Shown: piece after piece, positions 11,216-59,002 of the stretch
Layout of the letters: each line of letters starts with the position of its first letter
How positions within the stretch are numbered: the first letter of the stretch is position 1
Assembly: GCA_019057475.1 (NCBI GenBank)
Contig: DXJO01000010.1
Location: 107,460-171,459 of the forward strand
Direction: 5' to 3'
Origin: Candidatus Thorarchaeota archaeon
Lineage (GTDB): Archaea; Asgardarchaeota; Thorarchaeia; Thorarchaeales; Thorarchaeaceae
DNA: 64,000 nt
The notes under the pieces: model-generated
Databases searched by the model: none
The model's input: only the letters and a program-made list of their open reading frames with translations
Told to the model about the DNA's origin: nothing
Position numbers and translations under genes: made by a program

Positions 11216-11242
11216 GACTTAGGAACCGCCCAGTTTTCATGA

Positions 11243-11386: not shown

Positions 11387-11443
11387 TATACTTATTTCCA
11401 ACGACTTGATGAGCGGCGTAGGATAGACGGAGTAGATTGAGCA

Positions 11444-23956: not shown

Positions 23957-23985
23957 AATGACTTCAGAACCTCTTTACGTAGGAA

Positions 23986-24964: not shown

Positions 24965-25021
24965 TCATAGCAGGTCGCTGACATGGAACACACCCACAAT
25001 GTTTGTTTTTCCTTTTACATT
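24965..25021 (-). pseudogene. distant copy of the pyruvate kinase 3' end
   Basis: On the minus strand 18 codons read NVKGKTNIVGVFHVSDLL and stop. The intact pyruvate kinase ends NIEGKTNIVGVFHVRDLVE. About 40 of 54 bases agree, with most changes at third positions. Nothing upstream matches. The fragment sits ten bases after the nucleotidyltransferase stop. Confidence 0.65.
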
Positions 25022-25129
25022 CAATGTCTATCCTTTTCATACAATGAATTTCCTCACAAAGAAATGGAATTGACATCATCGTGAAATTCATGGGATATCT
25101 ATCAATAAAGAAACTGGGAGCGGTAGAAA

Positions 25130-32246: not shown

Positions 32247-33399
32247 GTGTTGAGGGACATGTTCATGAAGGTCCTAATCACCCCACAGTGCTTCCCTCCT
32301 GATATGGGGGACGGGGCAACAAGAGCACACAGTGTCGCAGTGGGTCTTGTCAGGGCTGGATGTGAAGTCACCGTAGTTTCTGCAGCTCCACACTATCCAA
32401 GTGGAAACATTCCCATGAAGTATCGTTGGAATCCCTTGCGTATCGAGTACGATAGTGAGATGAAAATCATCAGGGCTTTCGTCCCGCCAGTGGAATCAAG
32501 AGGATTCGCAAAGCGGGCAGTACTCTTCCTGTCATTTGTCCTCTCTTCGCTCTTTGCCATTCCCTTGGTCGGAACGGCTGATGTGGTCTTCGCAGCGAAT
32601 CCTAACATCACAGTCATGTTTGCAGGATTGATCTACAGGAATCTCAGCCGTTGTCCGCTTGTGCAGAATGTTGACAATCTCTGGCCTGAGGTTCTGTATG
32701 ACTTGGGTGTAAGGCGAGGTTCGTTCATAGGTAGATTGGACTAGTTGATGGCTAGGCTCGCGTATGGTTTGGCCTATGCCATAACATCGATTAGTCCCGC
32801 TTATGTTCATGTAATCAGAAGCAAATACGATATTGATTCGGGCAAAATACTCGTTGTGAAGGCTGGAGTATCTCATTCATGGGTTCTCGATGTTGAGAGA
32901 AACGGGAATCTCTGTCAATCTTGCTGTTGTTGGCTCACCTTCGCTGAATCAAATGGACTGTACGAAACGTATTCAGAAGCCTGTCATAGAACTTGACGTC
33001 GAGAATGACATGATTTTCACTGGACGAGTTGAGAACTCTTTGCTCCCCGGAGTTCTTAGTCAATTCGATGTGTTTGTGCATCCATCCAAGAGCGAAGGCA
33101 CTCCAGTGAGCATTCTTGAGGCTATGGCCATGGAACTGCCGGTCGTGGCGACCGATGTGGGCGGGATTTCGGAACTCGTGGTGGATGGTGAAACTGGAAT
33201 CATTGTTGAACCGATGAACTCTCCCTCAATCGCTTCAGCAATCGCCTTTCTCTTGCAGAACCCTGCAGAGCGCACGAGAATGGGGCGGAGCGGCAGACAG
33301 AGAGTACTGGATTTATTCACCCGTGACAAGACAGTGACCGGATACACTGAGGTCTATCACGAAACTGTGCGGAAACACCAGCACAGCAATCAAAACTAA
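32247..33399 (+). pseudogene. broken GT4 glycosyltransferase
   Basis: The head reads 'VLITPQCFPPDMGDGATRAH' and 'NVDNLWPEVLYDLGVRRG', closely like the intact gene at 47830-49089 ('NVDDLWPEALADLG'). An in-frame TAG at 32742-32744 interrupts it, after which the same frame continues 'MARLAYGLAYAITSISPAYV'. Near 32880 the frame is lost, and about 60 to 90 residues of the linker and first donor strands are deleted. The tail resumes as 'VFVHPSKSEGTPVSILEAMA' and 'VVATDVGGISELVVDG'. At least three lesions make it nonfunctional. Confidence 0.85.
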
Positions 33400-33532
33400 T
33401 ACTATACATCAATTTAAGGCGTTATGATAGGAATTAGGCTAAGGATGTGAGCCGAAATTTCAAAGGCACACCAGAGATATCGGGCTGTACATTCACTCAA
33501 GGTTTGTTAGCCCTTCATGAGAATAGAAGGAG

Positions 33533-34693
33533 ATGTTCCACACGCAGCGCAGGATTCGTATCTGTATTGTCGCCTTGTGTCCTGGACTCACTCCGATATC
33601 GGACCTCATTATGATCATGTCTAGGATTGCCCATGAGGTATACTTGGTCATTCCTGGGCTCCCGCGCAACATATTGCCGAATCTTTCCAACGTCAAGCAT
33701 TTGACCGTTCCTCACAGAGTATCCTCTGGGCTCGTTTCGAGACTGATGAATAGCATAATCACGCAATTTAGGGTGCTTCTTCAGGTCATGAAGATATCCA
33801 AGTCTGTAGACCTATACCTCTTCTCAATCAGTGGAGAAACATTTCTTCTACCCTTGCTGGGTTTGAAATTCATGAGGCAATTAACGGCCTTCATGCCCGG
33901 GGGGAATGCAATAAGAGTTTCCAAGATTAATAACGATTTGCTTTCACTTCTTATCCCCTCTGTGGTTTATGCCGCTCTTGAATTGACACACCGTATCATT
34001 CTCTATTCATCGCATATGGCAAAGGAAGCGGTTTTCGCGAAACACAAGAATAAGACGATATTCGCTCACAAGCACTTCATCAATTTCACTCGCTTTATGA
34101 GAGAGTATGACCTTTCCGAGAGACCAGAAACAGTTGGATTCATCGGGCGCCTAAGCAGAGAGAAGGGAGTACTGAGCTTTGTTGACGCCATACCACAGGT
34201 ACTTGACATAAGAGAATCTGTGAAGTTCCTGATTTGTGGCGACGGATTATTGCTTGAGGAGGCTAAGATGCGCGTTGCGAAACGAGGGCTTGAATCATCT
34301 GTCAGGTTCACCGGGTGGGTATTTCGTCAACAGATTCCAGACTTATTGAATTCTATGAAGTTGATGGTTCAACCGAGCCTAACCGAAGGGTTACCCAATA
34401 GCATCCTTGAGGCGATGGCCTGCGGAACGCCTGTTCTCGCTACACCCGTCGGTGGCATTCCTGATCTGATTGTGGAGTCTGAAACCGGATTTTTCCTTCG
34501 TTCCAGGAATCCCGACCATATCGCGGAGAGAATCTGTTCGCTTCTTGGCAACACGGAACTGCTGGAGAATGTGAGCAATCGCGCCATGGACTTCGTTAAT
34601 CAAGGCTTCTGCTTCTCGTATGTAGTTCAGAGTTGGCACAACGTCCTTGCTCAGCTGGGTTTGAGAAACACTAAATCCCAAGGTGCTGAATAG
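33533..34693 (+). CDS. GT4 glycosyltransferase
   Basis: The 386 residues start MFHTQRRIRICIVALCPGLT. The N-terminal domain lacks a clear glycine-rich acceptor loop and instead has 'PISDLIMIMSRIA'. The donor domain is canonical, with 'VGFIGRLSREKGVLSFVDAI' near 201 and 'SLTEGLPNSILEAMACGTPV' near 282, including both Glu of EX7E. A cytoplasmic glycosyltransferase of unknown donor. It follows the broken GT4 by 133 bases on the same strand. Confidence 0.87.
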   Translation: MFHTQRRIRICIVALCPGLTPISDLIMIMSRIAHEVYLVIPGLPRNILPNLSNVKHLTVPHRVSSGLVSRLMNSIITQFRVLLQVMKISKSVDLYLFSISGETFLLPLLGLKFMRQLTAFMPGGNAIRVSKINNDLLSLLIPSVVYAALELTHRIILYSSHMAKEAVFAKHKNKTIFAHKHFINFTRFMREYDLSERPETVGFIGRLSREKGVLSFVDAIPQVLDIRESVKFLICGDGLLLEEAKMRVAKRGLESSVRFTGWVFRQQIPDLLNSMKLMVQPSLTEGLPNSILEAMACGTPVLATPVGGIPDLIVESETGFFLRSRNPDHIAERICSLLGNTELLENVSNRAMDFVNQGFCFSYVVQSWHNVLAQLGLRNTKSQGAE

Positions 34694-34695
34694 CC

Positions 34696-35118
34696 TACTC
34701 AGCTCTGGATGTTCCTACCCTTTTCAACACTACGATTCTGCTCGCCAAACACAACTCTGGAGATCGGCCCGAGAATGTCGGAAAACTCCTTGCGGCCAAG
34801 AATGCTCAGAAGGATCCAGACTTCATGGTGATTGCTAGAGTAGAAGCCCTCATCGCAGGATGAGGCATGGATGAAGATCTCACTAGGTTTCGCGAGTATG
34901 AACGAGCTGGGGCTGACACAATACTAATCCACCACAAGGACTCAGACCCTTCCCCCATTCCGAAACTCATCAAGAAATGGAATGGTGGAGAGCCGCTTGT
35001 TCTTGTGCCAACCAAGTATCCATCATTCAACGAGAATCAGATGAAATGGTCAGGAAGGGTGGGGATGGTAATCTATGCTAACCGTAGCATCAATCATTCC
35101 AGTTCCAGGCGGAATTGA
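34696..35118 (+). pseudogene. phosphoenolpyruvate mutase remnant
   Basis: A frame reads 'VGKLLAAKNAQKDPDFMVIA', then 'RVEALIAG', then TGA at 34861-34863, then 'GMDEDLTRFREYERAGADTI' and 'LVLVPTKYP', ending 'MVIYANRSIN' where the family has MVIYANH. PEP mutases have 'EALIAGWGM' or similar at the stop, so a Trp codon TGG probably became TGA. The N-terminal half with the metal-binding DD/ED residues is missing. PEP mutase makes the C-P bond of phosphonates, so a phosphonate decoration may have been lost here. Confidence 0.8.
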
Positions 35119-35190
35119 AAACAGCATGCAAATATGAGCCACAAGTAGATGGTATCCAAGTGGATATGTCAGTGCAGTTGAATCATATGG

Positions 35191-35421
35191 TTAGTAATCA
35201 GTCGGAAGTCTTTGATGTTCTATAATTGTTGAGATGTAGCGACCATGATACTGCTTCACAAAGAGGTCCGTGTTGTCAGGCACCGTTTGCACCCGTGCCC
35301 AACCATACTCCTGCCTGAATATGCCTGAAACAGGATCATTCACTTCTATCTTGAAGCCGTGAATGTCATAGTACTCCATTTTTCGGCACTGTTCCAAAAG
35401 CGAAGAGAACTTGGAGGTCAT
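35191..35421 (-). CDS. small hypothetical protein or remnant
   Basis: A 76-codon minus-strand frame starts 'MTSKFSSLLEQCRKMEYYDI' and contains 'GFKIEVNDPVSGIFRQEYGW'. The composition is coding-like, and the piece may be the head of a longer lost protein, because it ends in 'EHQRLPTDY' without a domain boundary. No family is recognised. It lies just before the GT4 gene at 35498 on the same strand. Confidence 0.35.
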   Translation of the reverse strand: MTSKFSSLLEQCRKMEYYDIHGFKIEVNDPVSGIFRQEYGWARVQTVPDNTDLFVKQYHGRYISTIIEHQRLPTDY

Positions 35422-35497
35422 TTTACTCTATCGCATGGCAAAAATGATTTGCTTTGATGAGTGTTTTAAAACTCATCTCAAATACAACTTCGATTCA

Positions 35498-36658
35498 TCA
35501 ATTCCCCAGCACGCTGCGGTAGACGCCTAGCGTGATTCCAGCGACCTTGTTGATTGAATACCTCTGTTCAACGACTTGTTTCGCTCTGCGCCCCATTTTC
35601 TCAGCGGAATCCGGAGAGGATAAGACCTGATTCAGCAGATCCGTTAGGTCTTGAACTGCCCCTGCTGGAAACACTAGGCCAGTCGAGCCGGTTTCTATCA
35701 AGTCGGGGATGACTCCTACATCCGAGCCAATAACGGGAAGGGAGCAAGCATAGGCTTCAAGGATTGTCAGTGGAAACGTTTCATACCATGATGGCAAAAC
35801 GAACACATTGGCATCCACAAAAGCTGCCTTCTTGTCCATTCCGTATAGCGGACCGGTGAATGTAACATGTTCCTGCACACCATTGGAAACTGCCAAGGAC
35901 CGCAGATAATCTTGAAAGCCATAGTCCGGACCTGCAATCACAAGGTGTGAACTGAGCCCGGATTTAATTGAACGCGAGTACGCCAGCAAAAGGGTGTCAA
36001 GTCCTTTTATTTCATGGATGCGCCCCAAGAAAAGCACAATACTCGTTTCAGTATCAATGCCATACTTGGACCGGAATGTTCCTCGAGTGGGCATGATTTC
36101 GAAGTCTGCTAGATCAATACCATTTGGAACTACTTCAACTCGATTTGGCAGAAGTTCGAATCGTTGACACTGTTTCACTTCCTCATCGCAAAGGGCAAGC
36201 ACCCGAGCCGCGTCACGTAGCATTGATGTTCCAAGAAGGTTGTCATATACAAGTTTCAAATTCTGGTGCCCGGCAATTCTTGGAAGGGAACCATGGGGTT
36301 GAACTACGAATGGAACACCATAATTGCGTGCAAGCCTATGAACTACTACGTTCTGAAATGACCTATACCCATGAAGGTGTATTATGTCGAAATTCCGTAG
36401 ATTTCGCGTGGCATGTGAAACCAACCCCGGTGTAATAAAGAGCCCAAGAATAGGCTGATGCAAGTGGTTCCTGAAATAGTGAACTTGCATGCTGCCTAGG
36501 TTGATATTGTTTCTCTGTTTCGGTATTCCCGCATCTGTAGTGTAGATCTCGACATCGTGGCTCTTACTTTGCTCCCTCGCCATCAAGTATGCGGCCATGG
36601 GAACTCCCCCATAACACAAAGCGGGAGGGAAATACGATACAACATGCAGTATCTTCAT
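35498..36658 (-). CDS. GT4 glycosyltransferase
   Basis: From the ATG at 36658 the protein has 386 residues and opens 'MKILHVVSYFPPALCYGGVP', the usual GT4 start. An upstream ATG at 36724 would add 22 polar residues. A gagg sits just before 36658. 'HLHGYRSFQNVVVHRLARN', 'VVPNGIDLADFEI' and 'SWYETFPLTILEAYACSLPV' (EX7E) appear in order. It is the last gene of the long minus-strand run that starts at 50.8 kb, 201 bases after the DUF362 gene. Confidence 0.88.
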   Translation of the reverse strand: MKILHVVSYFPPALCYGGVPMAAYLMAREQSKSHDVEIYTTDAGIPKQRNNINLGSMQVHYFRNHLHQPILGLFITPGLVSHATRNLRNFDIIHLHGYRSFQNVVVHRLARNYGVPFVVQPHGSLPRIAGHQNLKLVYDNLLGTSMLRDAARVLALCDEEVKQCQRFELLPNRVEVVPNGIDLADFEIMPTRGTFRSKYGIDTETSIVLFLGRIHEIKGLDTLLLAYSRSIKSGLSSHLVIAGPDYGFQDYLRSLAVSNGVQEHVTFTGPLYGMDKKAAFVDANVFVLPSWYETFPLTILEAYACSLPVIGSDVGVIPDLIETGSTGLVFPAGAVQDLTDLLNQVLSSPDSAEKMGRRAKQVVEQRYSINKVAGITLGVYRSVLGN

Positions 36659-36859
36659 CTTGTCCTCAAGGTGGGCGTTGGGCATCGCCCCTTTTCCATG
36701 TTCTGATGATGAGGGTCCAGCCAAACTTCAACTGAGAACACTCTAGATCTGATTAGCCAGTAACAGTATCTAGATTCTGAAGTAGTGGAAATATCACTCA
36801 ATGAATCTCCTTAGTCACAAGCCTCGTGCATTGGAACAAGTGTATGAAGGAATGTATCT

Positions 36860-37885
36860 CTACACAACATAGGATCTCAGGTCTGTTTTTTCCTCTGGAG
36901 TTCTAATGACACTAACAGCTTCTCGGATTGCACTTGTGAATGGCGATTGAAAGATGATTCTGGCTAGCAGGCCTGAGTGGAATGGTATCAGTGAGAGGTA
37001 ATCCAGAACAGTTCTTGTAAAGCGGAATGAGTGACGAAACAATCTCCAGTCGACGTTCATGGTCACCGCGTCAAGGTTCGTAGTACCAAGACCCACATCC
37101 TCGGCCTTTCTGATGTGGCCGATACTTCGTGGTTTGAAACCCATAATGCTCGTCCCTAGGGTGTCGGCAACCACAGAGTTGTTCGCGACAAGTAACAGAT
37201 TCATCTTCACAGGTGTTCCAAACATCGGGCCATGGCCATCAAGAGCATATGTTCCGTCCACAACACAGATTGATGGCTTCCAGAGTTTCGTCAGGAGCGC
37301 AAGTTTTTCGTCAAGGTTATTATGGTACAAACATCTCATCGGGTCAGGGTAACAACCCCAAAGGTTCTTGATGCTGATGGTTACAGAGGTCATTGCATGG
37401 ACCTTGAGAACCGGAACGTTCACGAAGCAATCGACTTGGCTCTGAAGTAGCTTGGGTATTTCCACTTTGACTCTCTTGGAACCCACCTTTTCTGAGATGA
37501 ACTTGGTTGGCTCATTGGAGAGGTTAACAAGTTCTACTCCTAGATCCTTACAGATGGCATCCATCCCATGACCGCTGAACGCCTCCTCAGCTGTGAAGAC
37601 GTTATTACCCCCATTCGATTCCACAACTGTTACTCCAGACGCTCTATTACACAATCTCGTCAAGAGCTGCTCCAGCAGAGCGGGGGTTGTTGTAACTCCT
37701 TCCTTGTAGCAGGGAAACGTGAAGTTGGGTTTCACAAAGACGTGGTCATCACGTCCTACGATGTCTTTCCATCTGATATAATCGAGTCCGTTGGGGACGT
37801 TCCTATACACGTTCTCTGACTGAGCGATGTACGCCTTGAGTTCGGAACCTTCATGTGGGGTCATTATGAAGTAGCCTCTATCCAT
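36860..37885 (-). CDS. DUF362 family protein
   Basis: The 341-residue protein contains 'VFVKPNFTFPCYKEGVTTTP' near 50, 'VTVVESNGGNNVFTA' near 100 and 'VDCFVNVPVLKVHAMTSVTI' near 153-172, with 'SIKNLWG' after it. These are the core motifs of DUF362 (COG2006), a family often fused to ferredoxin domains; none is fused here. It lacks cysteine clusters. Its reaction is not known. DUF362 genes are found near glycan clusters in several archaea and bacteria, and this one lies between a GT4 and a flippase-led operon. Confidence 0.8.
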   Translation of the reverse strand: MDRGYFIMTPHEGSELKAYIAQSENVYRNVPNGLDYIRWKDIVGRDDHVFVKPNFTFPCYKEGVTTTPALLEQLLTRLCNRASGVTVVESNGGNNVFTAEEAFSGHGMDAICKDLGVELVNLSNEPTKFISEKVGSKRVKVEIPKLLQSQVDCFVNVPVLKVHAMTSVTISIKNLWGCYPDPMRCLYHNNLDEKLALLTKLWKPSICVVDGTYALDGHGPMFGTPVKMNLLLVANNSVVADTLGTSIMGFKPRSIGHIRKAEDVGLGTTNLDAVTMNVDWRLFRHSFRFTRTVLDYLSLIPFHSGLLARIIFQSPFTSAIREAVSVIRTPEEKTDLRSYVV

Positions 37886-37930: not shown

Positions 37931-38068
37931 TTATGCTGGTTCGGTGTTTTTCGATACTAGCGCCTGAAGTACGCCGAAGAACATACCGGTAATCTCATCC
38001 TATTCCAGTGATTCTGAGAACCTCAGTGCTGCATCAGAGAGTTCTTGGAACTGTTTCCGAGTCACCAT
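37931..38068 (-). pseudogene. 46-codon frame with in-frame TAG
   Basis: From an ATG the frame reads MVTRKQFQELSDAALRFSES LE, then TAG, then 'DEITGMFFGVLQALVSKNTE' and stops with TAA. The two halves look like one helical small protein cut by a nonsense codon. It overlaps the epimerase remnant in another frame. I do not recognise the family. Confidence 0.3.
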
Positions 38069-38258
38069 AGACTGTTCCACCTGAAGACGCAAACATGACA
38101 CTATTAATGCTACTCTTGCGCATTGATTCTAAGAAAGTCATCCCACCAACCGTGTTGATCTCGAAATCGAACTTGGGCTTCTTCGTGCTCAGTTTCGCAT
38201 CCGGCTCCCTGCGAGCTTGTAGTTCCGGTGCCCTATGATCTTGGAAAAGATCTACAAC
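38034..38258 (-). pseudogene. middle fragment of an NAD-dependent epimerase
   Basis: The frame reads 'KKPKFDFEINTVGGMTFLES' and 'SINSVMFASSGGTVYGDSET', the region from the third strand to the catalytic Ser of a sugar epimerase. It has no NAD loop and stops before the YxxxK motif. It follows directly behind a GT4 tail remnant, so the junction is a scar. Confidence 0.7.
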
Positions 38259-38322
38259 TCAGCTTCTATGCCTGATGAGCCTAGAAAGAATAGATTCCAA
38301 CTTGGGGCCGATACACTTGAGG
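38183..38322 (+). repeat. about 140-base direct repeat, copy A
   Basis: This stretch matches 47757-47896 in the same orientation with roughly nine of ten bases identical by eye. Both copies contain the end of a minus-strand GT4 gene and the first codons of an epimerase-like frame behind it. Confidence 0.8.
38259..38322 (-). pseudogene. tail remnant of a GT4 gene like 47830-49089
   Basis: The frame reads LKCIGPKLESILSRLIRHRS and TGA. The intact gene at 47830 ends LKCIGDKLETILSRLIRHRS. Only this last stretch remains. Confidence 0.75.
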
Positions 38323-38374
38323 TGACGTACCACTCTTGATGGTATTCCTCCTCGGACCTTGTTGATTTGAGGGA

Positions 38375-38590
38375 GTGATTACTAACTACGAGAGCGAGTG
38401 CTCTCCCAACCATTCAGTCGCGAAGACTATAACCTATCAGGATTTGATGCACAGAAGATACAATGCTTCGGAGATTCAGATCGCAGACGATGGTGTGTAT
38501 TCCATCCTGAAACTGGAGCTTGGAGTTCCAGCTCTGCACGACCACTGCAAGAGTCATACACGCTTTTGCTGTACTAGTCTCCGAACATGA
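38375..38590 (+). other. coding-like 71-codon frame, unidentified
   Basis: On the plus strand the frame includes 'TYQDLMHRRYNASEIQIADD' and 'YSILKLELGVPALHDHCKS', which look like protein. It overlaps the 3' end of the flippase on the other strand by 17 bases. It may be a fragment. The rest of the gap 37886-38573 is occupied by the remnants listed separately. Confidence 0.25.
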
Positions 38591-40076
38591 GGTTGAGAGC
38601 TGGGCTGGCATAAGCGTAGAATCTTCCAACAGTTTCCTCTGACAGGATTGAACGGGCTATCTCATCGATGTCATTCCTAGTGATGATTCCCAGTCGCCCA
38701 TAGCCCCCAACGGTCGCAAGAAGAAGCACCGGCACGCCAACAAGCCAATGGATGTTGAACATAACCAGTATCATTGCAATAGACCCAGGAACCAATATCG
38801 TCTTGACGTACATACCCCAATCCAACCGATATCCGGTTCTGCGGCTGGATACAACCACAGCCAGGATCGCTATTGCAGGACCTAGTGAGTAGGAAATCGA
38901 GGCTCCTAATCCGGATATTGCGACAACTAGAGGGAAGTACAGGATAATTCGTCCAAGGTTCAACGAAACCCCTATTCCTGTCACATGTTGGTATTTGCCG
39001 GTTGCGTAGACATAGCTATTGTATCCCACCACGATAGGCGTAAGTAGGGCACCAAGCACCAGGATTTGCAGCATGAGTGACGCTGGTAAGTAATCCGGAC
39101 CAAGCAGTAAGAATGGAAGGTATGAATAAACAGCTAATGTGCATGCCAGAGGTGCTGTTGCAACAAGCGAAAGCCGAATAGCTTGAGATATGGCTTGCTT
39201 TCGCCCGTGTTGCATACCACTAAGCAACGGGAACATCAACGCAAGCCCTCTTGTGGGCAAGACGTAGACGATTTGTCCTACCGCGAAAGCAAGATAGTAT
39301 AACCCCGTTTCGCCGCTCCCGATAATGCTGAATACGATGAGAACGCCTACGGAGTTCCCGAGGGTTGCCAGAAGGCGCGGAATCCATGCCGCATATCCAG
39401 TCAGTACCAGATTCTTGAGACTGTCTAGGGTGGGCTTGAACATTGCCTTGGACGAGAAGACCCGTGTGCTGTAGAATAGGAAGACTGCATCAACAGTAAT
39501 AAATCCCATAATGAAACCGGAAATTGCACCCCAGAACCCTAGCCCAAGATTGAGAAGCATAAGGCCTATAACGATTTTTAGTGTAGATGATGCTATCAAT
39601 GACTTGGCAATTACCTCAGTTCTCATCGTAGCGATGAACAGAGAGTGAAAGAGAGGGCTCCATGATGTTAAGATGAGGATTAGTGCAATCAGGATAAGCT
39701 CAATTGCACTCAAACCCAAGAATCCTGTGCTTGTCAAGGATCCCACAAGAATCGTGATGCTCACCAGAATATGGATAACAACCAGGTAGACTAGTCCGGT
39801 GCCGAAGTATGTGCTAATACTCTCTTCGTCACCTTTAGCATAGATCATCCCTATGAAACGTTGTAGACCGGCAGGAATTCCTATTGAGAACAGCATTACC
39901 AATACACTTTGCAATGCCAGAATAACTGCAATGGATCCAATAACGCTAGGTGACACGTATGCCGATACGACTATCCAGTACACATACCCCGCTGCATTTG
40001 AAACTATCGTCCCGATCAACAGCCAAAGACTGCTTCTGAATACCTCACCCAACTTCAGTTCATCTGTCACCTCCAA
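38574..40076 (-). CDS. Wzx-type polysaccharide flippase (3 of 3)
   Basis: The protein has 500 residues and about 14 membrane segments. 'VFRSSLWLLIGTIVSNAAGY' and 'YWIVVSAYVSPSVIGSIAVI' open the MOP-family fold. 'SIGIPAGLQRFIGMIYAKGD' after helix 2 is the usual polar loop. It ends the block of LamG membrane protein, pyruvyltransferase-like and FrhB-like genes on the same strand, 123 bases after the last, and likely exports the glycan those genes modify. Confidence 0.88.
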   Translation of the reverse strand: MEVTDELKLGEVFRSSLWLLIGTIVSNAAGYVYWIVVSAYVSPSVIGSIAVILALQSVLVMLFSIGIPAGLQRFIGMIYAKGDEESISTYFGTGLVYLVVIHILVSITILVGSLTSTGFLGLSAIELILIALILILTSWSPLFHSLFIATMRTEVIAKSLIASSTLKIVIGLMLLNLGLGFWGAISGFIMGFITVDAVFLFYSTRVFSSKAMFKPTLDSLKNLVLTGYAAWIPRLLATLGNSVGVLIVFSIIGSGETGLYYLAFAVGQIVYVLPTRGLALMFPLLSGMQHGRKQAISQAIRLSLVATAPLACTLAVYSYLPFLLLGPDYLPASLMLQILVLGALLTPIVVGYNSYVYATGKYQHVTGIGVSLNLGRIILYFPLVVAISGLGASISYSLGPAIAILAVVVSSRRTGYRLDWGMYVKTILVPGSIAMILVMFNIHWLVGVPVLLLATVGGYGRLGIITRNDIDEIARSILSEETVGRFYAYASPALNLMFGD

Positions 40077-40199
40077 TGACTTCTGGGATAATCGAGTGGC
40101 TGATGAATCGCGGTTGATTCAATAGCAAATCCCGCTGAAGATGGGTCAGACTGCCAGGCCTATCAGGCATTGTCGGTGCTATGCCTTGAATGGATCTGA

Positions 40200-41513
40200 C
40201 TATTTCAGGAACCTCCTGAAAAAGGAAATTATGCGCTTTGAAACGAGAAACATCTTCAAAAATATCCAGAGCGCCCCCCTAGATGCAAGAGCTCTACCAA
40301 CATAGAGATCGATCGCCAATAGGTAGGATTCTATGCCGGGGAGAGGAAATGCCTGTTTCTGTTCGACTATCGGGAACTTTTTCTGGAAGATACGGGAAAT
40401 TCTCTTCCGACTAATGACTTTCTCAGGTTTCTTCGCTAAACCCGGCTGCAAACTTCCTATGATGTCTTTCGCTAAAGGAGTTGCGTGGATTCTGTACGCT
40501 CTTTTTGCGTCCCTCACTAGGGACTCACCAAGAGCCGTTCGTGTAATCATAAGCGAATTGCCCATTCCGACAAGTTGTTGCGATGACCACATATCACCAC
40601 ACGAAACATCCGAGAACTCGTTGAACCCCTGTGTACAGATTGTGCATCTGAAAGGGAAGAAGTACTCAGTAACTCCTTGCCAATATTGGGGGTAAGATCG
40701 GGTCATTCGCCTTCTATTCTCTTGATTCCTTCTTTCGAGAAGTAAACGACCTGGCCACCCTCCTCCTCTATATTCGATTCTGGACAACGATTCAAGATCA
40801 AAGCCATAAAGGTGGAGGAGATAACGAGTGCCGAGGTATGTTGGAGCTCCTCCACAAAGTAATCCGATAATAAAAACAAGGCCTTTCTTATAGACTGGAT
40901 TAATTTCTGTGAGCCTTCTGATGGCATATGCTTGACAAGGAAGAGCTACAACTCCAAATCGATTATTGGGGCCAAGCCGTTTCAGACCTTCTGCGAATGA
41001 CACAGGACAGTACTTCGAGCCGGCAGCCAATGACACCTCCTTGGACGTGCGGGCCAAGAATGTTCTAGCATATGGCAGCCTATCGACCTCCAGTCGTGTT
41101 AGGACTGCCGAATCGATTATCCCTTTCTCGAATGCGAATTGCACCAGAGCAGTGACTATACCACCTGAGGATGATGAGTTGGCAATTGACTTATTCGTCG
41201 TGCTACCAGAATACGCATTGATGTGGTTGCCTAGCAGACCTGCGTTTTCTGAAACCAATCGCCCACTTGATTCCTGTTGGGCTACACCATAGCCGAAACA
41301 AACTTGGAGACACTTTTGACACAGTAGGCATGAATCCCTATCTACTGACGGTATTGGAAGTCCCTTTGCAGAGTTGTATGTCATTCTTATCGAGTGGTTT
41401 GGGCAGGCTACTTCACATACTCCACAGCCCATGCAGAGGTTGTGATAGACTACATACTCGATGTTTCTCATCTCAACCATTTTGGATCCCACCGGCAGAT
41501 CACCGTGATACAC
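40200..41513 (-). CDS. FrhB/FdhB-like F420-type oxidoreductase with two 4Fe-4S clusters
   Basis: The 437 residues start with a ferredoxin module: 'CMGCGVCEVACP' near 31-42 and 'CLLCQKCLQVCFG' near 62-74. 'SSSGGIVTALVQFAFEKGII' near 113 and 'GVVALPCQAYAIRRL' near 190 are typical of the coenzyme F420 hydrogenase/dehydrogenase beta-subunit family, in the branch linked to polysaccharide clusters. Nine bases separate it from the pyruvyltransferase-like gene upstream. The pair is widely conserved in glycan loci; a reductive step on a sugar or lipid is inferred, not shown. Confidence 0.85.
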   Translation of the reverse strand: MYHGDLPVGSKMVEMRNIEYVVYHNLCMGCGVCEVACPNHSIRMTYNSAKGLPIPSVDRDSCLLCQKCLQVCFGYGVAQQESSGRLVSENAGLLGNHINAYSGSTTNKSIANSSSSGGIVTALVQFAFEKGIIDSAVLTRLEVDRLPYARTFLARTSKEVSLAAGSKYCPVSFAEGLKRLGPNNRFGVVALPCQAYAIRRLTEINPVYKKGLVFIIGLLCGGAPTYLGTRYLLHLYGFDLESLSRIEYRGGGWPGRLLLERRNQENRRRMTRSYPQYWQGVTEYFFPFRCTICTQGFNEFSDVSCGDMWSSQQLVGMGNSLMITRTALGESLVRDAKRAYRIHATPLAKDIIGSLQPGLAKKPEKVISRKRISRIFQKKFPIVEQKQAFPLPGIESYLLAIDLYVGRALASRGALWIFLKMFLVSKRIISFFRRFLK

Positions 41514-41522
41514 GTTTCAAAC

Positions 41523-42848
41523 TCACAGAATAGGTAATTGTGATTCAAGTACCTTTTTCAGCAAAGCTCCGTTCAAAAGTGCCCCCTTCTTGGCAGACAT
41601 TACTATCGGAACTAGGCAACTGCTTATGTTTTCTCTCTCTGACGCCATTCTTTGGACTAGATTAACGAGTTCTTGATTCTTATGATGCTCAACGTAATAT
41701 ATCCATTTTCCTTGTTTCAGCATACTCCCTACAAGGCCTACTGACCTAACATCCGATTGATATGAGAGGGTACATGAAGGTGTACCCATTGATAGCGCAC
41801 CTATAACTGAGTGTATCCTCGCTCCTATCATCAAATCCGATTTGCCCATTAAGGCCTTCAATTCTGCAGTGGAGTACTCCTTTCGAAAGACGTGTACATT
41901 CTGGTGGTTTGTCATCACACTAGCGATATCCTCCCCCACAACTCTATCATCGCGACCTTCATGTGATTCGATACAGTGCGGTAAGAAAAGTATTTCCCCA
42001 TCAAGACTGTCTATTATCATGTCAAACGATTTGGCTAATTCCCTAACCGCCATGTCATACCTGAGGTTTTTTTCTGAAACAGAAGGATAGAATTTCAGAA
42101 GGAGACTTCTGGTTACTGTTACACTCACCAGTAACCTATCCTTGGGTATTTTCTCGTTCGTAAGTATCTGATCTGCCGTGCTCGAATCCGCTGCAGGGGC
42201 CAGAATCGCTGGGTCTCCTGTGAGAATCACGCGTGGAGATCCACCAGATAGCATCTTGAGGTATCGGTAAGAGTATTTGTCCCTCACTGTAACCAAAGCG
42301 GCACTCTTAAGAACGTAGCCCGCCAGTGACTCCCATATCTTCCTTTTGTATCCAGACGTACCATTGCCATAAACCACAATAGGCTTCTTGAGCACCCGGG
42401 CCACAAGAGTGATGTAGACTGGACTGTACGTGAGGAGGAATCCTCCAGCACAACCCACACCATTATGACAGATTACGTAGAGGTCGGAATAAAAATACAG
42501 ACTCCAGATCCGCTTTTTCATCACCTTTAGGACATTATTCCCAATGAGAATGTACAGCATGATAAAAAGGAAGTGCTGGATGAAACCAAAGAGCGCTGTT
42601 TTTAGGCTATTTAGTAGAGAATTATCATGAAGCACATCTCCAAGATGCAGGTCGCTTCGGATATCGACAGTACCAACACCGGATGGATATCGCGCCGCAT
42701 CAATGAACGGCTGAAATGAGAAAACGTTGGCCTCGTAGTCGCCAAGAACGTCGAAAGTCTTGAGCATTCCATTGAGAATCGCCAGTTCGCCTTTGTTTAA
42801 ACTGGGAATCCATTCTGCTATCAGAATTCGCACCTTGGACCCATTCAT
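41523..42848 (-). CDS. polysaccharide pyruvyltransferase family protein (WcaK-like)
   Basis: The 441-residue protein begins 'VRILIAEWIPSLNKGELAIL', a variant of the 'N.GDEA' start of the family. 'LVTVRDKYSYRYLKMLSG' near 186 and the C-terminal 'LMIGARIHSVIGALSMGTPS' near 335, with the conserved R-H pair, identify the fold. It would move a pyruvate ketal from PEP to a glycan sugar. Spacing to the LamG protein upstream is 23 bases and to the FrhB-like gene downstream nine bases, so all are one operon. Confidence 0.82.
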   Translation of the reverse strand: MNGSKVRILIAEWIPSLNKGELAILNGMLKTFDVLGDYEANVFSFQPFIDAARYPSGVGTVDIRSDLHLGDVLHDNSLLNSLKTALFGFIQHFLFIMLYILIGNNVLKVMKKRIWSLYFYSDLYVICHNGVGCAGGFLLTYSPVYITLVARVLKKPIVVYGNGTSGYKRKIWESLAGYVLKSAALVTVRDKYSYRYLKMLSGGSPRVILTGDPAILAPAADSSTADQILTNEKIPKDRLLVSVTVTRSLLLKFYPSVSEKNLRYDMAVRELAKSFDMIIDSLDGEILFLPHCIESHEGRDDRVVGEDIASVMTNHQNVHVFRKEYSTAELKALMGKSDLMIGARIHSVIGALSMGTPSCTLSYQSDVRSVGLVGSMLKQGKWIYYVEHHKNQELVNLVQRMASERENISSCLVPIVMSAKKGALLNGALLKKVLESQLPIL

Positions 42849-42871
42849 TAGATTTGTTCCTCCGGATTAGT

Positions 42872-45800
42872 TCACCGCCCGAATAGCAATGCCAGTTTCC
42901 GTACCCGATCCGCTTTGCGCAGCTTTTTTTGTGTCTTGGATAGAACACACCAAAGAGTACCCACGATTACGGACCATACAGTAAGCTGCAGAATACTCTC
43001 CACTTCGTTCCATTGAAACTTTATTGCAGTCGAAGTCTTCGTCCCTGTCAACGTGAATTCCGAGATGAATGTATAAGTGTCTGAGGCCATCAGCTTAAAA
43101 CCGACATTACCTTCAAGCAGGATATCATCACCATCAACTGGCAGTTGCAGATGTGCATCATAAAGCGTGTACAGTGTTTTGAACTCAGACATCCCGGAGT
43201 TGTCAACCAGCAGGGGCGTTCTGGCAACTATCTCGAAATCCCCGAACAATGTCAATTCACTTAATTCGACATTGAATATCTGGGTTATATTCTCTGACAC
43301 AACAGTAAGACTCACTTCCCCTTCCAGAAACCTAACAACGGGATTTCTCATGCGTAAGTTCACGTAGAAACCTTTCCCGGGAATAATTTCAAGCGTATCG
43401 CACGCGACGCTATTTAGATTTCTGCATGCAAAGTGAACGCCCTCTATCCCGGTGATAGTCCTCGTTTCATTCATTAGATGAATAATCCCCCGGGCAACAT
43501 CAATAGCTGTAAATGAGGCGAGGGCACTGAATCTGGTTGTGCACTCACCTTGCAATTTCGCTGATTGGAAGAACGCGGTGCTGCCTCCGTACGCCCAAGT
43601 GTGTGTGCTCTCGGCCAGACTAATGTCGATGTCGACGATGTCGTACAAGCTTCCTAGAACCTGAACTAACGGCCTCCATTCTCTGATGCTGGCGACTGCA
43701 TGAGTGTATGATTGGTTTATCTGCTGAGGCGTCAGGACGCTGTTATGGATTGCAACTGAATTCATGGAACCATTCAATAACCAGTTATCATCATGTCGTT
43801 TTCCAATGATTAGTGAAAGATTGTCAGGCGCAATCATCTCGCTGAATTCGCGATTCGCTATCCTCGAGCCGTCAACGTAGAAATTGACTTCTCCCGACCC
43901 TACTGTAACAGCCACATGATAATACCGACCCGGTTCCAGCTCCCTGAATCCAGCAGACACCGTGCTGTAAGTTGTTCCGTTGCCACTGTTGAAAAGGAAG
44001 TTGGTGCCATCAAACATGTAGCCATATCCGGTAGATACCTTGTATCCCTCTATCTTGCTGATTATTGTGAACCCATCATCGGGGCGTTCTGGACTAATCC
44101 ATGCCTCAATTGATAGCTCGGTTGTTTCATTTAGCTCTTCAGCATTTGTTATCTCTACATAATCATCCACGCCATCGAAGCTCAAAGAGAACCCCAATGA
44201 ATCAATGATTCTACTTGGTCCGAAAAGAGTTCCAGTGTTTGAATTACCTGAATAATCTGAAATCGACCCGCCAGTGGATTCATCGAAACGGAACTCAAGT
44301 ATGCTTTTCGAGTAATTGAGTGTTTCGATGCTGAGGAGTTCCTTTATTATCGGAAAGATGTTCATATACACTAGGTGGACATTCCCGACAACTAATTTAG
44401 CAGCCAAAGCTGTACGGTTTTGATTGTTTGCGTACCACGCTATGATTGTAGCATTGTCCTCTACGAAAGACAACTGCTCACATTCTACTGGCGAAGGAAG
44501 CAGAAGTGTGGAGTTATGATTCTCAATCCAGTATGCTACCATTGTATCAGTTGTGTTCCTGTCGAAAAGCGCATTTGAAATGGGTCCAAACCCATTTTGA
44601 TTAATAATAACAACCTGCGTCGAGCTCGGCTCGTTTTCGGCGTTGAGAGCAATGCTATTGAGTAAATCGAGAGTCGTGTTAGTATCTTCGGATAACACTA
44701 CAATTTGAGAACCAAGAATCGTTTCTACATCGCTTGGAAGGCTCACTGTGTAGTTGTAACCACCAAGATACAGCATTTCATATGCGTAGAAGCCAGCTAC
44801 ACCTACTTCCTCACTGGTCACCAAAGTCAAGTCACTTGTGTATGACGGGGGAACCCCAGCCAAAATCTCAAAGCACTCGACATCTTCGTTTGAGAAGACT
44901 TCTTTGAAAATGCTGGACATATGTGAGGCTAAGTAGCTCGTAAAGTAGGATTCTTGGATGTACTGCTGATCATCCTGTGTCAGATAGACGTAAGGCGAGG
45001 GGTATCCACTGCTCTGCAGAAGTATCAAGGGGATATCAGGATACAAAGACCCCCAAACTGGCATTCGGTATCGGTTGATGCGGTAAGGCGACGGGACAAA
45101 ATCCATGGTTCGTCGAGACGAATCTGAAACAGTCAGGATTGGAGTTCTTGCATCCCTGACTGTTGGTGATGAAAGGAACTCGATTGCTTCAAGGGTTCGC
45201 TCGTCGAGAGGCGGTGTCATTCTTGAGCTCCTGTACTCGATAGTAATGAGAGTGGACATTAATCCACTGAACACAACAATCAGGATTACGCAGAATGCAA
45301 GTGACTTATTATTACTATCCAGTTTCTGAACTTTCTTCATGAAGGGCACCGAGGCGACAACCGAAACCATTGCTAGAACAAGCGGCAGGAATCGCCGCTC
45401 ACCATAGCCGAAGTCAATAACAAATGCGTTCAGGATACTTATTGACTTTCCAACGATGACTGTAGTAACAAGTATCACAATCGCAACTTTAAGACCCATC
45501 TTGAACCTCGGATTAGACAGCCATGGTAGACTTGCGGGGAGCATCATCCCCGCAACTCCCATGATTAGTGGGTATAGAATTATTGGTACGAAGTATGTAC
45601 TCGAAACCGATGCTGCAGAGAAGCCATTCGGTATGCTAAGCCAGGAAAGCAGACCCGCGATAAGGATAATTAGCAAAATCGCCGCAATATGATTATGATT
45701 GATTGCTTTCAATGGATTTTCATACGTGGGGAACTGACTGAATGATAATAGTGCCGTAGCGACGGCAATTCCCATAAGAATTAGCTGCTCAATGAGCGAG

Positions 45801-47134
45801 AATGGCTGAATAAACCCGCCAAATGACCCCGAAAGCCCGACACACAGCAGGAATACAATCACTCCCAGTAACGAAGAAACTGTGACCGGTCTGATGGAAT
45901 CACGAAACGATTTGCCTGCGAACATAACGACCATGAACAAGATGACTTGGAAAAGCAAGAGTTCTGGAAGGTGCACTAGACCTAGTATCAGGACTAGAAG
46001 AGCCACCAATATCATCTTCTTGAATCTCTGCATTTCGTTGTTAAGCATGATGTGAACAAGTACAAAAATTAGAACTAGTGAAACAGTCATAGGACGGAAC
46101 CACAACCAGAGCCAAGGCCCATTGGCAGATCCAATGTCCCAATAGGTCATGTCACGAAGAGTACGGAAAACAGTCCCCAGAGGGCCGTCAGGAAGCCACG
46201 GGGAGAATAGAGCAATCCAGCCGAACCCTGCGAAGAACGAGAAGAAGAGAGTCGAAAGCACAGCCATACGACTGTCATTCAGAAGCATCCTGGCCATAAC
46301 ATAGAATGCTGCAATGAAAATGATCCCAAGGAAGCTCAACCCAGTCAGAAGCACCTCAAAGGAGGGATTCAACATCGTGATGATAGTTGCCCAAGGCATG
46401 TGGAACCAAGGATAGACTGATTGATACACATCAGGCACTTGTACTAGCAGTGTTGCCTCAGAGAAATGCCGAACTATGTCCAGACCCTTTTGATGTGCCA
46501 TTTGGGGGTATACACAGGCAATGACTGAAAGGAAGCCAAGAGATATCGAAAGCAGCATCGCTGATTCTGCGATACCAAGAGTGAATTTGACTTGACCAAA
46601 GCCTTGATGGTCCAGGACCCTTGATGTCGTCGAACGGAGGACGAGGAGGGCTGACAAGACTGCATATGTTGCCAGAATCAACCATCGTGCATTGACGCCG
46701 ACTGATACACACCCAGAATAGATAATTGAGGTCAAACCCATACTCAGCGCGAAAGAGAGGACAGGCCATTCAATCCAGCTTTTCATATGACGATATTGGA
46801 GGAATCTGAGAAGTGCGTAGCCTGGCAGGAAAAAAGCGATTGTGATTGCAATCATCGTCACTGCCAAGTCATTTAATTTCTGAATCGTGGCCCAAGTCAA
46901 TACCACAATAGCGAGTAATATCATCACATTGATGGTGGCCTCGAGTTTCGTCGTGTCGAAGGTTATCGTGGTATGTTTCTGCTCTTCCCGAATTAGCAAA
47001 TAGACAAGTGGGGGCATGGTAACTTGGATTGCAAAGAGGACATATTTCACTGGAGATACAAAATGGATGAGTATTCCGATTGCCATCAAAGCCGAAAAAA
47101 TAGCCATAGCGGCGGCCATTGATTTCAAGTTCAT
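42872..47134 (-). CDS. giant membrane protein with LamG domain, GT-C-like
   Basis: The protein has 1420 residues. Residues 1 to about 640 contain some 15 or more membrane segments, with a loop 'KGLDIVRHFSEATLLVQVPD' near 215 and 'VYPWFHMPWATI' after it, in keeping with large GT-C or DUF2298-like proteins. From about 640 to 1385 it is outside. A LamG-type sandwich lies at about 945-1150: 'SLSFDGVDDYVEI', 'SIEAWISPERPDDGF', 'VNFYVDGSRIAN' and 'SMNSVAIHNSVLTPQQI'. A single anchor near 1390 and a basic tail end it. It probably binds and extends or transfers glycan on the cell surface. Confidence 0.75.
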   Translation of the reverse strand: MNLKSMAAAMAIFSALMAIGILIHFVSPVKYVLFAIQVTMPPLVYLLIREEQKHTTITFDTTKLEATINVMILLAIVVLTWATIQKLNDLAVTMIAITIAFFLPGYALLRFLQYRHMKSWIEWPVLSFALSMGLTSIIYSGCVSVGVNARWLILATYAVLSALLVLRSTTSRVLDHQGFGQVKFTLGIAESAMLLSISLGFLSVIACVYPQMAHQKGLDIVRHFSEATLLVQVPDVYQSVYPWFHMPWATIITMLNPSFEVLLTGLSFLGIIFIAAFYVMARMLLNDSRMAVLSTLFFSFFAGFGWIALFSPWLPDGPLGTVFRTLRDMTYWDIGSANGPWLWLWFRPMTVSLVLIFVLVHIMLNNEMQRFKKMILVALLVLILGLVHLPELLLFQVILFMVVMFAGKSFRDSIRPVTVSSLLGVIVFLLCVGLSGSFGGFIQPFSLIEQLILMGIAVATALLSFSQFPTYENPLKAINHNHIAAILLIILIAGLLSWLSIPNGFSAASVSSTYFVPIILYPLIMGVAGMMLPASLPWLSNPRFKMGLKVAIVILVTTVIVGKSISILNAFVIDFGYGERRFLPLVLAMVSVVASVPFMKKVQKLDSNNKSLAFCVILIVVFSGLMSTLITIEYRSSRMTPPLDERTLEAIEFLSSPTVRDARTPILTVSDSSRRTMDFVPSPYRINRYRMPVWGSLYPDIPLILLQSSGYPSPYVYLTQDDQQYIQESYFTSYLASHMSSIFKEVFSNEDVECFEILAGVPPSYTSDLTLVTSEEVGVAGFYAYEMLYLGGYNYTVSLPSDVETILGSQIVVLSEDTNTTLDLLNSIALNAENEPSSTQVVIINQNGFGPISNALFDRNTTDTMVAYWIENHNSTLLLPSPVECEQLSFVEDNATIIAWYANNQNRTALAAKLVVGNVHLVYMNIFPIIKELLSIETLNYSKSILEFRFDESTGGSISDYSGNSNTGTLFGPSRIIDSLGFSLSFDGVDDYVEITNAEELNETTELSIEAWISPERPDDGFTIISKIEGYKVSTGYGYMFDGTNFLFNSGNGTTYSTVSAGFRELEPGRYYHVAVTVGSGEVNFYVDGSRIANREFSEMIAPDNLSLIIGKRHDDNWLLNGSMNSVAIHNSVLTPQQINQSYTHAVASIREWRPLVQVLGSLYDIVDIDISLAESTHTWAYGGSTAFFQSAKLQGECTTRFSALASFTAIDVARGIIHLMNETRTITGIEGVHFACRNLNSVACDTLEIIPGKGFYVNLRMRNPVVRFLEGEVSLTVVSENITQIFNVELSELTLFGDFEIVARTPLLVDNSGMSEFKTLYTLYDAHLQLPVDGDDILLEGNVGFKLMASDTYTFISEFTLTGTKTSTAIKFQWNEVESILQLTVWSVIVGTLWCVLSKTQKKLRKADRVRKLALLFGR

Positions 47135-47137
47135 TAG

Positions 47138-47290
47138 CTATTTCAACCAATGTTTTCTCAAGACAATGGCCAGCTTATGCAGCCCTTCAGAGTCAGTCCC
47201 AGTTACAGAATCCATCAGTCTTGGCAATATGACTACGTGGCTTTTCCCCAGGTTATTAAGATTCTGTTTCCAAGCTGCAACTATACGATT
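47138..47290 (-). pseudogene. 50-codon frame continuing the GT4 remnant past TAG
   Basis: Behind the TAG that closes the GT4 tail remnant, the same frame stays open for 50 codons: 'NRIVAAWKQNLNNLGKSHVV', 'ILPRLMDSVTGTDSEGLHKL' and 'AIVLRKHWLK'. It has no start of its own. It may be the tail of another lost gene joined in frame, or a read-through extension. I do not recognise the family. Confidence 0.35.
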
Positions 47291-47624
47291 CTAACAGTCT
47301 AGAAGTCGCACCAATAACTCAATCCAGATTACTAGTACCTTTGCAAAGTCAAAGCAGCTGGCCACATATTGGAGTGCATTGCCTGCAATTCGTTTCAGGG
47401 AATGGGGATCATCCAGTAGTTGGATGATACGATTGGAGCGCATCGGAGGATCATTCGATTCAAGGATGAGCCCATTATGGCTGTTCTCAATGATTTCAGT
47501 CACTGACCCGACACCTGATATCAAGACACGTGTGCCGCACGCCATTGCTTCAAGCATTACATCAGGCAGTCCTTCAGTATAGGAGGGGAGTACAAATAGT
47601 CTTCCTCGTCGTAAAGACTCTCGC
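47291..47624 (-). pseudogene. tail fragment of a GT4 glycosyltransferase
   Basis: The frame reads 'LRRGRLFVLPSYTEGLPDVM' and 'LEAMACGTRVLISGVGSVTE', which is the EX7E donor site, then a helical tail ending 'LLVRLLDC' at TAG. Everything before the last donor-domain strands is replaced by the head of a GT2 gene in another frame. Confidence 0.8.
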
Positions 47625-47700
47625 GCAGGTTTTTGATTACCTTACCCCGCACCCTTTTTTCATTGTACGCTGGGATTGCGACAATCAACCTGGACAAGGG
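47625..47700 (-). pseudogene. head fragment of a GT2 glycosyltransferase
   Basis: The frame reads 'RLIVAIPAYNEKRVRGKVIK', matching the start of the intact GT2 gene at 18942 (LVVMIPAYNEEKTVGKVIDE). It stops after about 25 residues, where the GT4 tail begins in a different frame. Confidence 0.75.
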
Positions 47701-47756
47701 GACTCCACACTCTCCTTTCTTGATGAGCAGTGGATACTATGGCACATAAATGTGCT

Positions 47757-47896
47757 TGGTCTGCTTTGCGTCGGGTTCCCTGCGAGCTTGTAGTTCCGGT
47801 GTCCTATAATCTTGGATAGGCTCTACAACTCAGCTTCTATGCCTGATGAGCCTAGAAAGAATAGTTTCCAACTTGTCGCCGATACACTTGAGTGAA
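47757..47896 (+). repeat. about 140-base direct repeat, copy B
   Basis: This is the partner of 38183-38322, 9.57 kb away in the same orientation. Here the right part codes for the end of the intact GT4 gene at 47830. The left part reads 'DYRTPELQARREPDAK', the same epimerase-like start as copy A, and then diverges. Confidence 0.8.
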
Positions 47897-49089
47897 AGGT
47901 GACTTTCCACATATCTTTTCCCCTTCATTCCCATAAGCTTGCCAACTGACGGGGTTTGCTCTAGTCCATCAATGAAATCAAACGCCCGTTCAATCCGGTT
48001 TTGACTAACCGAAAGTCCACACTCTGCTATTTCAACCAGCTGCGCAGGCTGACCTTTTCCAAGAACAAGAACTGGTCGTTCGAAGGCCATGAAATCGAGT
48101 AATTTGGAAGGTATTGCGGTAGTGGAGATGAAATTGTCTTTCATAGGTAGTATGAACACTGTTGCTGTTTTCATGAAACTTGCGTATTCCTCATTAGTCA
48201 TGTGCTTTCGGAGCACCTGTACATTGGAGAGGTTCCTAGCCTTAATCCCTCTTCTAAGAAGATTTGTCGTCATGCCAAGCCCTTTCACTATGAATGTCCA
48301 GTTCTTGTTTCTTTCTTGTGCCAGCTTTGCAATGTTCAGAATCAGGTTGAAGTCGTATGCAGGTCCAAGTGCACCAGCATAGATGATTCGGATTGTATCA
48401 TTGGTTGGAATTGCTACCTCATCATCAAATCTACGAAACCTGCTATAGTCGAAGCCTACCTCGATTGTCTTAATTCGATCTTGAGGAATCCCATTTCTTA
48501 TCAAGTATCGCGTGATTGCACCAGCTATGGGAATAACGTAATCTGACATCTTCAGCATCGCGTTCCTTACAGCGGCCAACCCGCGAAGCATCAGATTATT
48601 CTGCACTATTCCTAGATCAGCAAGAGCTTCTGGCCAGAGGTCATCCACATTCATTATCAACGGAGTCCTCTTGCACATCTTATAGAGGAGTCCCAAAGGA
48701 TACACAAAGAAGTTTGGGCTCATGGCCATGACCAAGTCGCTCTCCCCCACCAATGGGAGGACTAGTAGGCTCGCGAGCATGAAATAGAGATAGTTTGCCA
48801 TCCTACCGGCAGTGCTGTGATGGCTCATAGGCGGCATCCACAATCTGATGACAGTAAGTCTTCCCTTGGTCTGGAACTGATACATTTTTCGATTGCACAA
48901 GGCTCTATTATTCCCATCTGGATAATGTGGCACGCCTGTCACTAGTACAACTTCATAACCACGACTCAGCATATCTTTCACGATGTGAAACGTTCTCATT
49001 CCAGAACCTGCTATATCTGGTGGGAAATACTGTGATATGAGGCAGACTCTTTTGATGCCCTTTGACTCGTTATTAACCATCACAATCAC
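47830..49089 (-). CDS. GT4 glycosyltransferase, WcaI-like
   Basis: The 419 residues start with a polar leader, then 'VCLISQYFPPDIAGSGMRTF' and 'VVLVTGVPHYPDGNNRAL', the pattern of WcaI/WbuB-type enzymes. 'NVDDLWPEALADLGIVQN' near 147 is typical, and 'IPSKLLDFMAFERPVLVLGK' near 330 replaces the EX7E box as in this subgroup. It is 42 bases behind the carbamoyltransferase on the same strand. The broken gene at 32247 is its closest relative in the window. Its 3' end is duplicated at 38259-38322. Confidence 0.88.
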   Translation of the reverse strand: MIVMVNNESKGIKRVCLISQYFPPDIAGSGMRTFHIVKDMLSRGYEVVLVTGVPHYPDGNNRALCNRKMYQFQTKGRLTVIRLWMPPMSHHSTAGRMANYLYFMLASLLVLPLVGESDLVMAMSPNFFVYPLGLLYKMCKRTPLIMNVDDLWPEALADLGIVQNNLMLRGLAAVRNAMLKMSDYVIPIAGAITRYLIRNGIPQDRIKTIEVGFDYSRFRRFDDEVAIPTNDTIRIIYAGALGPAYDFNLILNIAKLAQERNKNWTFIVKGLGMTTNLLRRGIKARNLSNVQVLRKHMTNEEYASFMKTATVFILPMKDNFISTTAIPSKLLDFMAFERPVLVLGKGQPAQLVEIAECGLSVSQNRIERAFDFIDGLEQTPSVGKLMGMKGKRYVESHLSLKCIGDKLETILSRLIRHRS

Positions 49090-53188: not shown

Positions 53189-53286
53189 TCAATGGTGGCT
53201 GTGTTCTGGTAGGATGTTTCGCGTGTGGAACACACCTACAATGTTCGTTATTCCTTTAATGTTCCTAGTGCCAAAAAAGCGATATC
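53189..53286 (-). pseudogene. tandem copy of the pyruvate kinase 3' end
   Basis: On the minus strand this reads GTRNIKGITNIVGVFHTRN and a new tail 'ILPEHSHH' before TGA, and a one-base shift connects it to DIAF upstream. The intact gene 100 bases away has DIVFTSGTRNIEGKTNIVGV. It is in the same orientation as the intact 3' end. Confidence 0.75.
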
Positions 53287-54732: not shown

Positions 54733-54782
54733 GGCTGAGCACTCCGCTTGGGGCACTTCTTCGAGATAACGTTCTTCGGTCC

Positions 54783-54789
54783 TTATAAC
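54783..54789 (-). promoter_or_regulatory. TATA-like box for pyruvate kinase
   Basis: Read on the minus strand it is gttataa, preceded by aaccttttt, which resembles a BRE plus TATA element. It is 51 bases ahead of the TTG start at 54732. Confidence 0.4.
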
Positions 54790-54931
54790 AAAAAGGTTTG
54801 CCAACCAGCGGACCAGACTGAGCCGATACAGATTCAGTTATTTGGCACGTTTACATTGACTAAGACATAGCTCAGACGAAACACCATAAACCAGAACACC
54901 GGAATGGTTTCTGAAGGGTGGCGTGGCAATC

Positions 54932-58847: not shown

Positions 58848-59002
58848 TAGAAGCTACCTTCCTCAATGTGAACCTAATGTCGTTCTTTCCGTGACAGAGG
58901 CCCCTTCTAGTTTGTTAAAAGGCTTGCTTTGAACCCGGAGTTGCACTGCGATTCATACAAGGCTATGCATCATCTGTAATGCCGGTCTAGGTGAGAGCGT
59001 GC

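Follow-up and report, generated by a model that had tools for sequence, protein, structure and literature searches.

The direct repeat that brackets a block of glycan genes in the window (the whole analyzed stretch of 64,000 nucleotides from a Candidatus Thorarchaeota genome) is probably the scar left by insertion of a gene block at the 3' end of a GT4 glycosyltransferase gene. This reading is adopted because the arrangement in the window has the same geometry as analogous loci; at three other loci of the genus, an insert is demonstrably flanked by copies of a gene tail, and the corresponding empty sites in relatives carry a single copy of the tail. Conserved neighboring genes are often separated by a single gene or a small operon that has no mobility genes, and the route by which it arrived is usually unknown. 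Orphan tails at both ends of an insert provide a sequence signature that reveals the event and its direction (insertion as opposed to deletion), permits dating and makes the mechanism testable. In the window, the tails point to the pyruvyltransferase-FrhB-flippase-LamG block having been inserted whole into the glycan locus, downstream of a glycosyltransferase gene that was already there.

The two copies of the repeat, at 38186-38321 and 47757-47892, were delineated in the window with a repeat finder and BLASTN; they align without gaps over 136 nt, with 121 of the 136 positions identical (89%), in-window E-values of about 1e-44 to 1e-47 and a longest exact run of 43 nt. The first-pass annotation had placed them correctly to within 4 bases, and the identity and common orientation that it reported are confirmed. 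Just two copies were detected in the 3.34 Mb genome to which the window belongs; exact-pattern scans of genome and viral contigs yielded no further copies, matches in 99 related genomes were short and at chance level only, and no further similarity was found in the sequences flanking the copies on the outside. The mismatches are unevenly distributed, with 7 in the first 20 nt vs 8 in the remaining 116 (Fisher p = 0.0016). The similarity of the poorer 20-nt end exceeds chance: at least 13 matches in 20 positions occur in 0.02% of random window pairs, and an extension equal to this end in both score and length in 0.04% of such pairs. A structured RNA or a MITE was rejected, given that the repeat has no Rfam match, that its folding is not above that of shuffles and that only two copies were found in the genome; tandem duplication of the 9.6 kb segment was likewise rejected because the interior is unrepeated.

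Other repeats were noted on contig C42 of genome G000, outside the window. A repeat of ~280 nt that occurs three times (180066-180347, 210386-210667 and 345608-345884; 90-93% identical) has similar inverted ends (GAACTTGTACAATCCTGGACA) and is MITE-like, and a direct 191-nt repeat (99050-99240 and 221591-221781; 88% identical) has a partial third copy at 98215. Within the window, an eroded copy of the end of a UDP-sugar dehydrogenase gene together with the beginning of the nucleotidyltransferase gene that follows it (10817-11390) shows 73% DNA identity over 288 nt to the intact pair at 22628-24954, which lies 12.7 kb away; two tandem UDP-glucose/GDP-mannose dehydrogenase genes (57498-60355) share 72% DNA identity; and a GT4 gene at 32247-33399 is split into N-terminal and C-terminal ORFs, probably as a pseudogene or through a frameshift.

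On the minus strand, the repeat opens with the final 63 nt of the GT4 gene, which comprise its last 20 codons and stop (LKCIGDKLETILSRLIRHRS); next come a spacer of ~52 nt and then 20 nt that resemble a motif of SDR epimerases. In frame, these final 20 nt encode EPDAK, matching the QPDVRLS motif known from this family. Copy 2 (47757-47892, minus strand) combines the 3'-terminal 20 codons and stop of the intact GT4 gene (47830-47892) with the 73 nt downstream. This gene (47830-49089, minus strand; Pfam Glycos_transf_1 / Glyco_trans_4_4), whose 3' end forms the repeat, has homologs that are 25-32% identical. Copy 1 (38186-38321, minus strand) comprises an orphan GT4 tail (38259-38321, minus strand), located 9.4 kb downstream of GT4 and beyond the LamG-pyruvyltransferase-FrhB-flippase genes, then the spacer and the start of an SDR (NAD-dependent epimerase) fragment. 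This fragment of 54 codons (38046-38207, minus strand), which is 52-63% identical to intact SDRs of the same and related genomes, starts inside copy 1 at the QPDVRLS motif and continues in frame after copy 1 (38207-38046). The direct repeats thus overlap the 3' end of an intact gene, and the geometry is that of an intact gene followed by its tail, the insert and an orphan tail, all on one strand. The similarity continues past the stop codon, which indicates that the repeat does not merely reflect protein conservation. Confinement of the similarity to the GT4 coding end, which the first-pass annotation had named as the finding that would speak against its proposal, is excluded: the similarity runs 73 nt beyond the stop and the distant GT4 homologs are so dissimilar that conservation of the GT4 end was rejected as the sole cause. 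The synonymous pattern in EPDAK (5 of 7 third positions, p = 0.045) was rejected as proof of divergence under coding, being too weak alone.

The genes between the copies are those listed in the first-pass annotation (flippase, FrhB-like, pyruvyltransferase-like and LamG genes and a chimera). The chimera (47135-47756, minus strand), in which a GT2 N-terminal fragment or head (VPLSRLIVAIPAYNE...) precedes a GT4 C-terminal fragment (47303-47620), directly follows copy 2 on the minus strand. Next come genes, all on the minus strand and assigned by Pfam, for a 1420-aa protein with a Laminin_G_3 domain (42872-47134), a polysaccharide pyruvyl transferase-like protein (PS_pyruv_trans; 41523-42848), an FrhB/FdhB-like protein with 4Fe-4S motifs (40200-41513) and a polysaccharide flippase (Polysacc_synt; 38574-40076), and finally a noncoding insert end that adjoins copy 1 (38322-38573) and shows no similarity to the other side. 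The order pyruvyltransferase-FrhB-flippase is identical in G028, which represents a different genus of the family, the identity being 43% for both pyruvyltransferase and FrhB and, over the flippase fragment present there, 33%. That the repeat brackets a coherent module is supported by the organization of the core trio as an operon in that genome. The GC content of the block (46.1%) is near that of the flanks (47.4 and 48.9%) and is not informative. No recombinase was found among the Pfam matches and ORFs of at least 60 aa in 38322-47756, and no transposase among the Pfam matches of the insert. At the thresholds used, GT4, flippase, FrhB, pyruvyltransferase and pyruvate kinase are absent from six genomes of the same genus, and the GT4 search of genome and viral contigs was empty.

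At three other loci, empty sites in relatives can be compared directly with filled sites, where other assemblies of the genus also have the insert between tail copies. At the first of these loci, G003 and six genomes from other genera of the family have the empty site, with the convergent GlpK and LarA genes side by side; in G000, G001 and G004, a gene for a 177-aa membrane protein separates the two. In G000 and G001, LarA borders the insert on one side and a 212-nt copy of the LarA tail on the other; in G004, the insert is present and the orphan copy is mostly lost. The orphan tails of this locus group together and have 7 sites in common with the resident tail vs 3 with the empty site, and the changes between them and the empty-site copy show little codon-position bias; codon positions and shared sites together lean toward duplication of the recipient's own tail. 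At the second locus, a 999-aa secreted beta-propeller-repeat protein is encoded between two genes that are adjacent in G003 (empty), and a 95+66 nt repeat is present; G000 and G001 are filled, with the duplicated tail. At the third locus, an aminotransferase-M23-phosphotransferase fusion separates two genes that are direct neighbors in G006 and in outgroups from the family, a 122-nt repeat spans the tails of both convergent neighbors, and G000, G001, G004 and G010 are filled. G010 belongs to another genus, and its filled site is on a contig about 91% like the source genus, which may be a contaminant. The occurrence of filled sites in independent assemblies rules out an assembly artifact at all three loci, and the empty outgroups at the first and third loci make insertion, not deletion, the parsimonious direction there. 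The inserted aminotransferase fusion (contig C40 of G000, 114708-117797, L226-L228) is 97-98% identical between assemblies and the flanking gene only 91-93%, which points either to a recent spread or to strong constraint.

A second case in the window involves pyruvate kinase, the anchor gene beside the glycan locus (53305-54804, minus strand). Two orphan tails consisting of its last 20-21 codons are present on the same strand, one just downstream of the gene (53210-53272, minus strand; 71% aa identity) and the other 28 kb downstream (24968-25027, minus strand). The differences from the gene fall mostly in third codon positions (15/22 and 11/18), as would be expected of fragments derived from other functional pyruvate kinases, and this pattern leans toward donor tails. 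Pyruvate kinase lies within tens of kb of glycan-gene matches in G008, G013, G014 and G017, and no copies of its tail were found in the stretches of the relatives that were examined.

The recurrence of this pattern emerged from a search in which 30-residue segments from the ends and the interior of every mechanically called ORF of at least 150 aa were compared with noncoding DNA to detect additional copies. Across 1.07 Mb of the genome containing the window, C-terminal tails recur downstream, on the same strand and in noncoding DNA, at about 12 loci, compared with 3-4 N-terminal copies upstream and few interior copies. The bias of tails over heads (12 vs 3) is moderately significant (p = 0.035), and the difference between this genome and two control genomes, G025 and G048, is stronger (p = 2e-4): no C-terminal copy was found downstream on the same strand within 60 kb in 400 kb of each control, and none in ~290 kb of pyruvate-kinase loci from six relatives. 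Some of the ~12 loci are probably plain pseudogene remnants. Several of the tail pairs enclose a single gene or a small number of genes, with convergent neighbors on either side; the tail repeats sit on unrelated genes without common sequence, and no end motif shared among the inserts at different loci was found. On contig C40 of G000 (32443-37052, L193), the tail of an HhH-GPD glycosylase gene is copied 3.8 kb downstream, and the cargo between the tails, perhaps with a role in defense, consists of genes for restriction-like and Holliday-junction-resolvase-like endonucleases.

The scar reading of the window repeat is weakened by the abundance of gene fragments in the locus, where ordinary decayed duplication could look the same, as well as by the uneven mismatches along the repeat; furthermore, the inserts elsewhere share no end motif and no single machinery was identified. 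A serious, if rather unlikely, alternative is that a GT4-SDR segment was once present at 38 kb and has eroded to the tail, the 9.4 kb never having been inserted as a unit. Such decay would be in line with the other eroded copies in the window, namely the UGDH/nucleotidyltransferase pair at 10817-11390 and the split GT4 at 32247-33399, and with the SDR fragment that follows copy 1. However, GT4 similarity does not extend beyond the 136 nt: no recognizable GT4 was found upstream of copy 1 on the minus strand, where the BLASTX residues before the repeat are weak. Moreover, tails without the rest of the gene recur elsewhere, and at three of these loci insertion is demonstrated.

If the window repeat is an insertion scar, a 9.4 kb block made up of the pyruvyltransferase-FrhB-flippase operon, the LamG protein and glycosyltransferase debris would have entered behind GT4, and recombination would have kept GT4 whole while leaving a second tail with the downstream spacer on the far side. 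The window would then be one case of a recurrent process in the genus whereby cargo is placed behind a resident gene, between two copies of its 3' tail, and the likely driver would be recombination that uses the gene tail as its anchor and involves no dedicated integrase. This could proceed along either of two routes. Incoming DNA with an orthologous tail might recombine with the resident gene such that the old tail is left behind, a possibility favored by the pyruvate kinase tails, or else the tail of the recipient itself might be duplicated at insertion, as favored at the GlpK/LarA locus. Given that the block contains no recombinase and that the inserts have no common end motif, a single integrase or transposon is unlikely. 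More tentatively, we consider it possible rather than probable that the genus acquires genes by general insertion, without a dedicated integrase or transposase, with the glycan module of the window as one product; each event would add cargo downstream of a resident gene, in many cases where two genes converge, and would duplicate ~60-210 bp of that gene's 3' end.

It is quite unlikely that the copies are the attL and attR of a mobile element that integrated site-specifically into the GT4 3' end and has since lost its integrase gene. The geometry with a restored gene end fits such an event, and 3'-distal integration into protein-coding genes is documented in archaea (PMC6563490); yet there is no recombinase among the insert ORFs of at least 60 aa, the 136-nt copies with their 11% mismatches are longer than typical att sites (29-69 bp in crenarchaea; PMC6563490), and similar repeats are found on unrelated genes, with no common sequence or insert ends. 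The first-pass annotation went further and proposed a cassette in which recombination between the copies deletes or amplifies the module. The term holds insofar as the module is bounded by direct repeats and empty sites at three further loci demonstrate tail-flanked inserts. Active excision or amplification is highly unlikely: direct repeats at 89% identity with an exact run of 43 nt could recombine, and repeat-bounded deletions, mostly with repeats <20 bp, have been inferred in Haloquadratum (PMC3119063), but the copies have diverged, the genome has no tandem copy of the module, the block has no recombinase, and none of the relatives searched within the genus carries the locus. Finally, in a genome of 56 contigs that is 96% complete with 2.6% contamination and is thus probably metagenomic, one might suspect that strain variants of the glycan locus were merged into a chimera during assembly, but this is hardly credible because analogous loci with the same arrangement recur in independent assemblies and the tail copies, at 11-29% divergence, differ more than strain variants would.

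Campbell-type single-crossover integration and homology-facilitated illegitimate recombination can both result in an intact gene, followed by foreign DNA and a second copy of the gene's end; no circle or donor molecule was observed in the present case. Hypervariable glycan loci of the O-antigen/capsule type are anchored between conserved genes. Similarly, the glycan genes here vary beside a conserved gene, in this case pyruvate kinase-enolase, whereas the duplications of anchor-gene tails seen here are not standard in those loci.

In Haloquadratum, gain or loss of gene blocks is tied to much shorter repeats (PMC3119063). The deletion-coupled insertions and repeat-bounded indels of Haloquadratum walsbyi resemble the loci described here in that strain-specific blocks, including surface genes, occupy fixed positions and one repeat copy is present where the block is absent (PMC3119063). 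They differ in that the repeats are mostly <20 bp and the best-resolved events are deletions, or insertions replacing DNA (PMC3119063), whereas here the repeats are long and correspond to gene 3' tails, and the outgroups indicate insertion. The closest known phenomenon is the integrase-driven integration into gene 3' ends in Thaumarchaeota, where 14 of the 68 mapped elements are integrated into 3'-distal parts of protein-coding genes (PMC6563490). Unlike those elements, the inserts described here have no integrase or mobility gene, involve many unrelated target genes, lack common ends and in some cases consist of a single gene, and their repeats are ~95-212 nt long with 11-17% divergence at the best-defined loci. 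What the two share is an insert located behind a gene whose end is restored, direct repeats at both ends and empty sites in relatives, the latter seen here at the three other loci.
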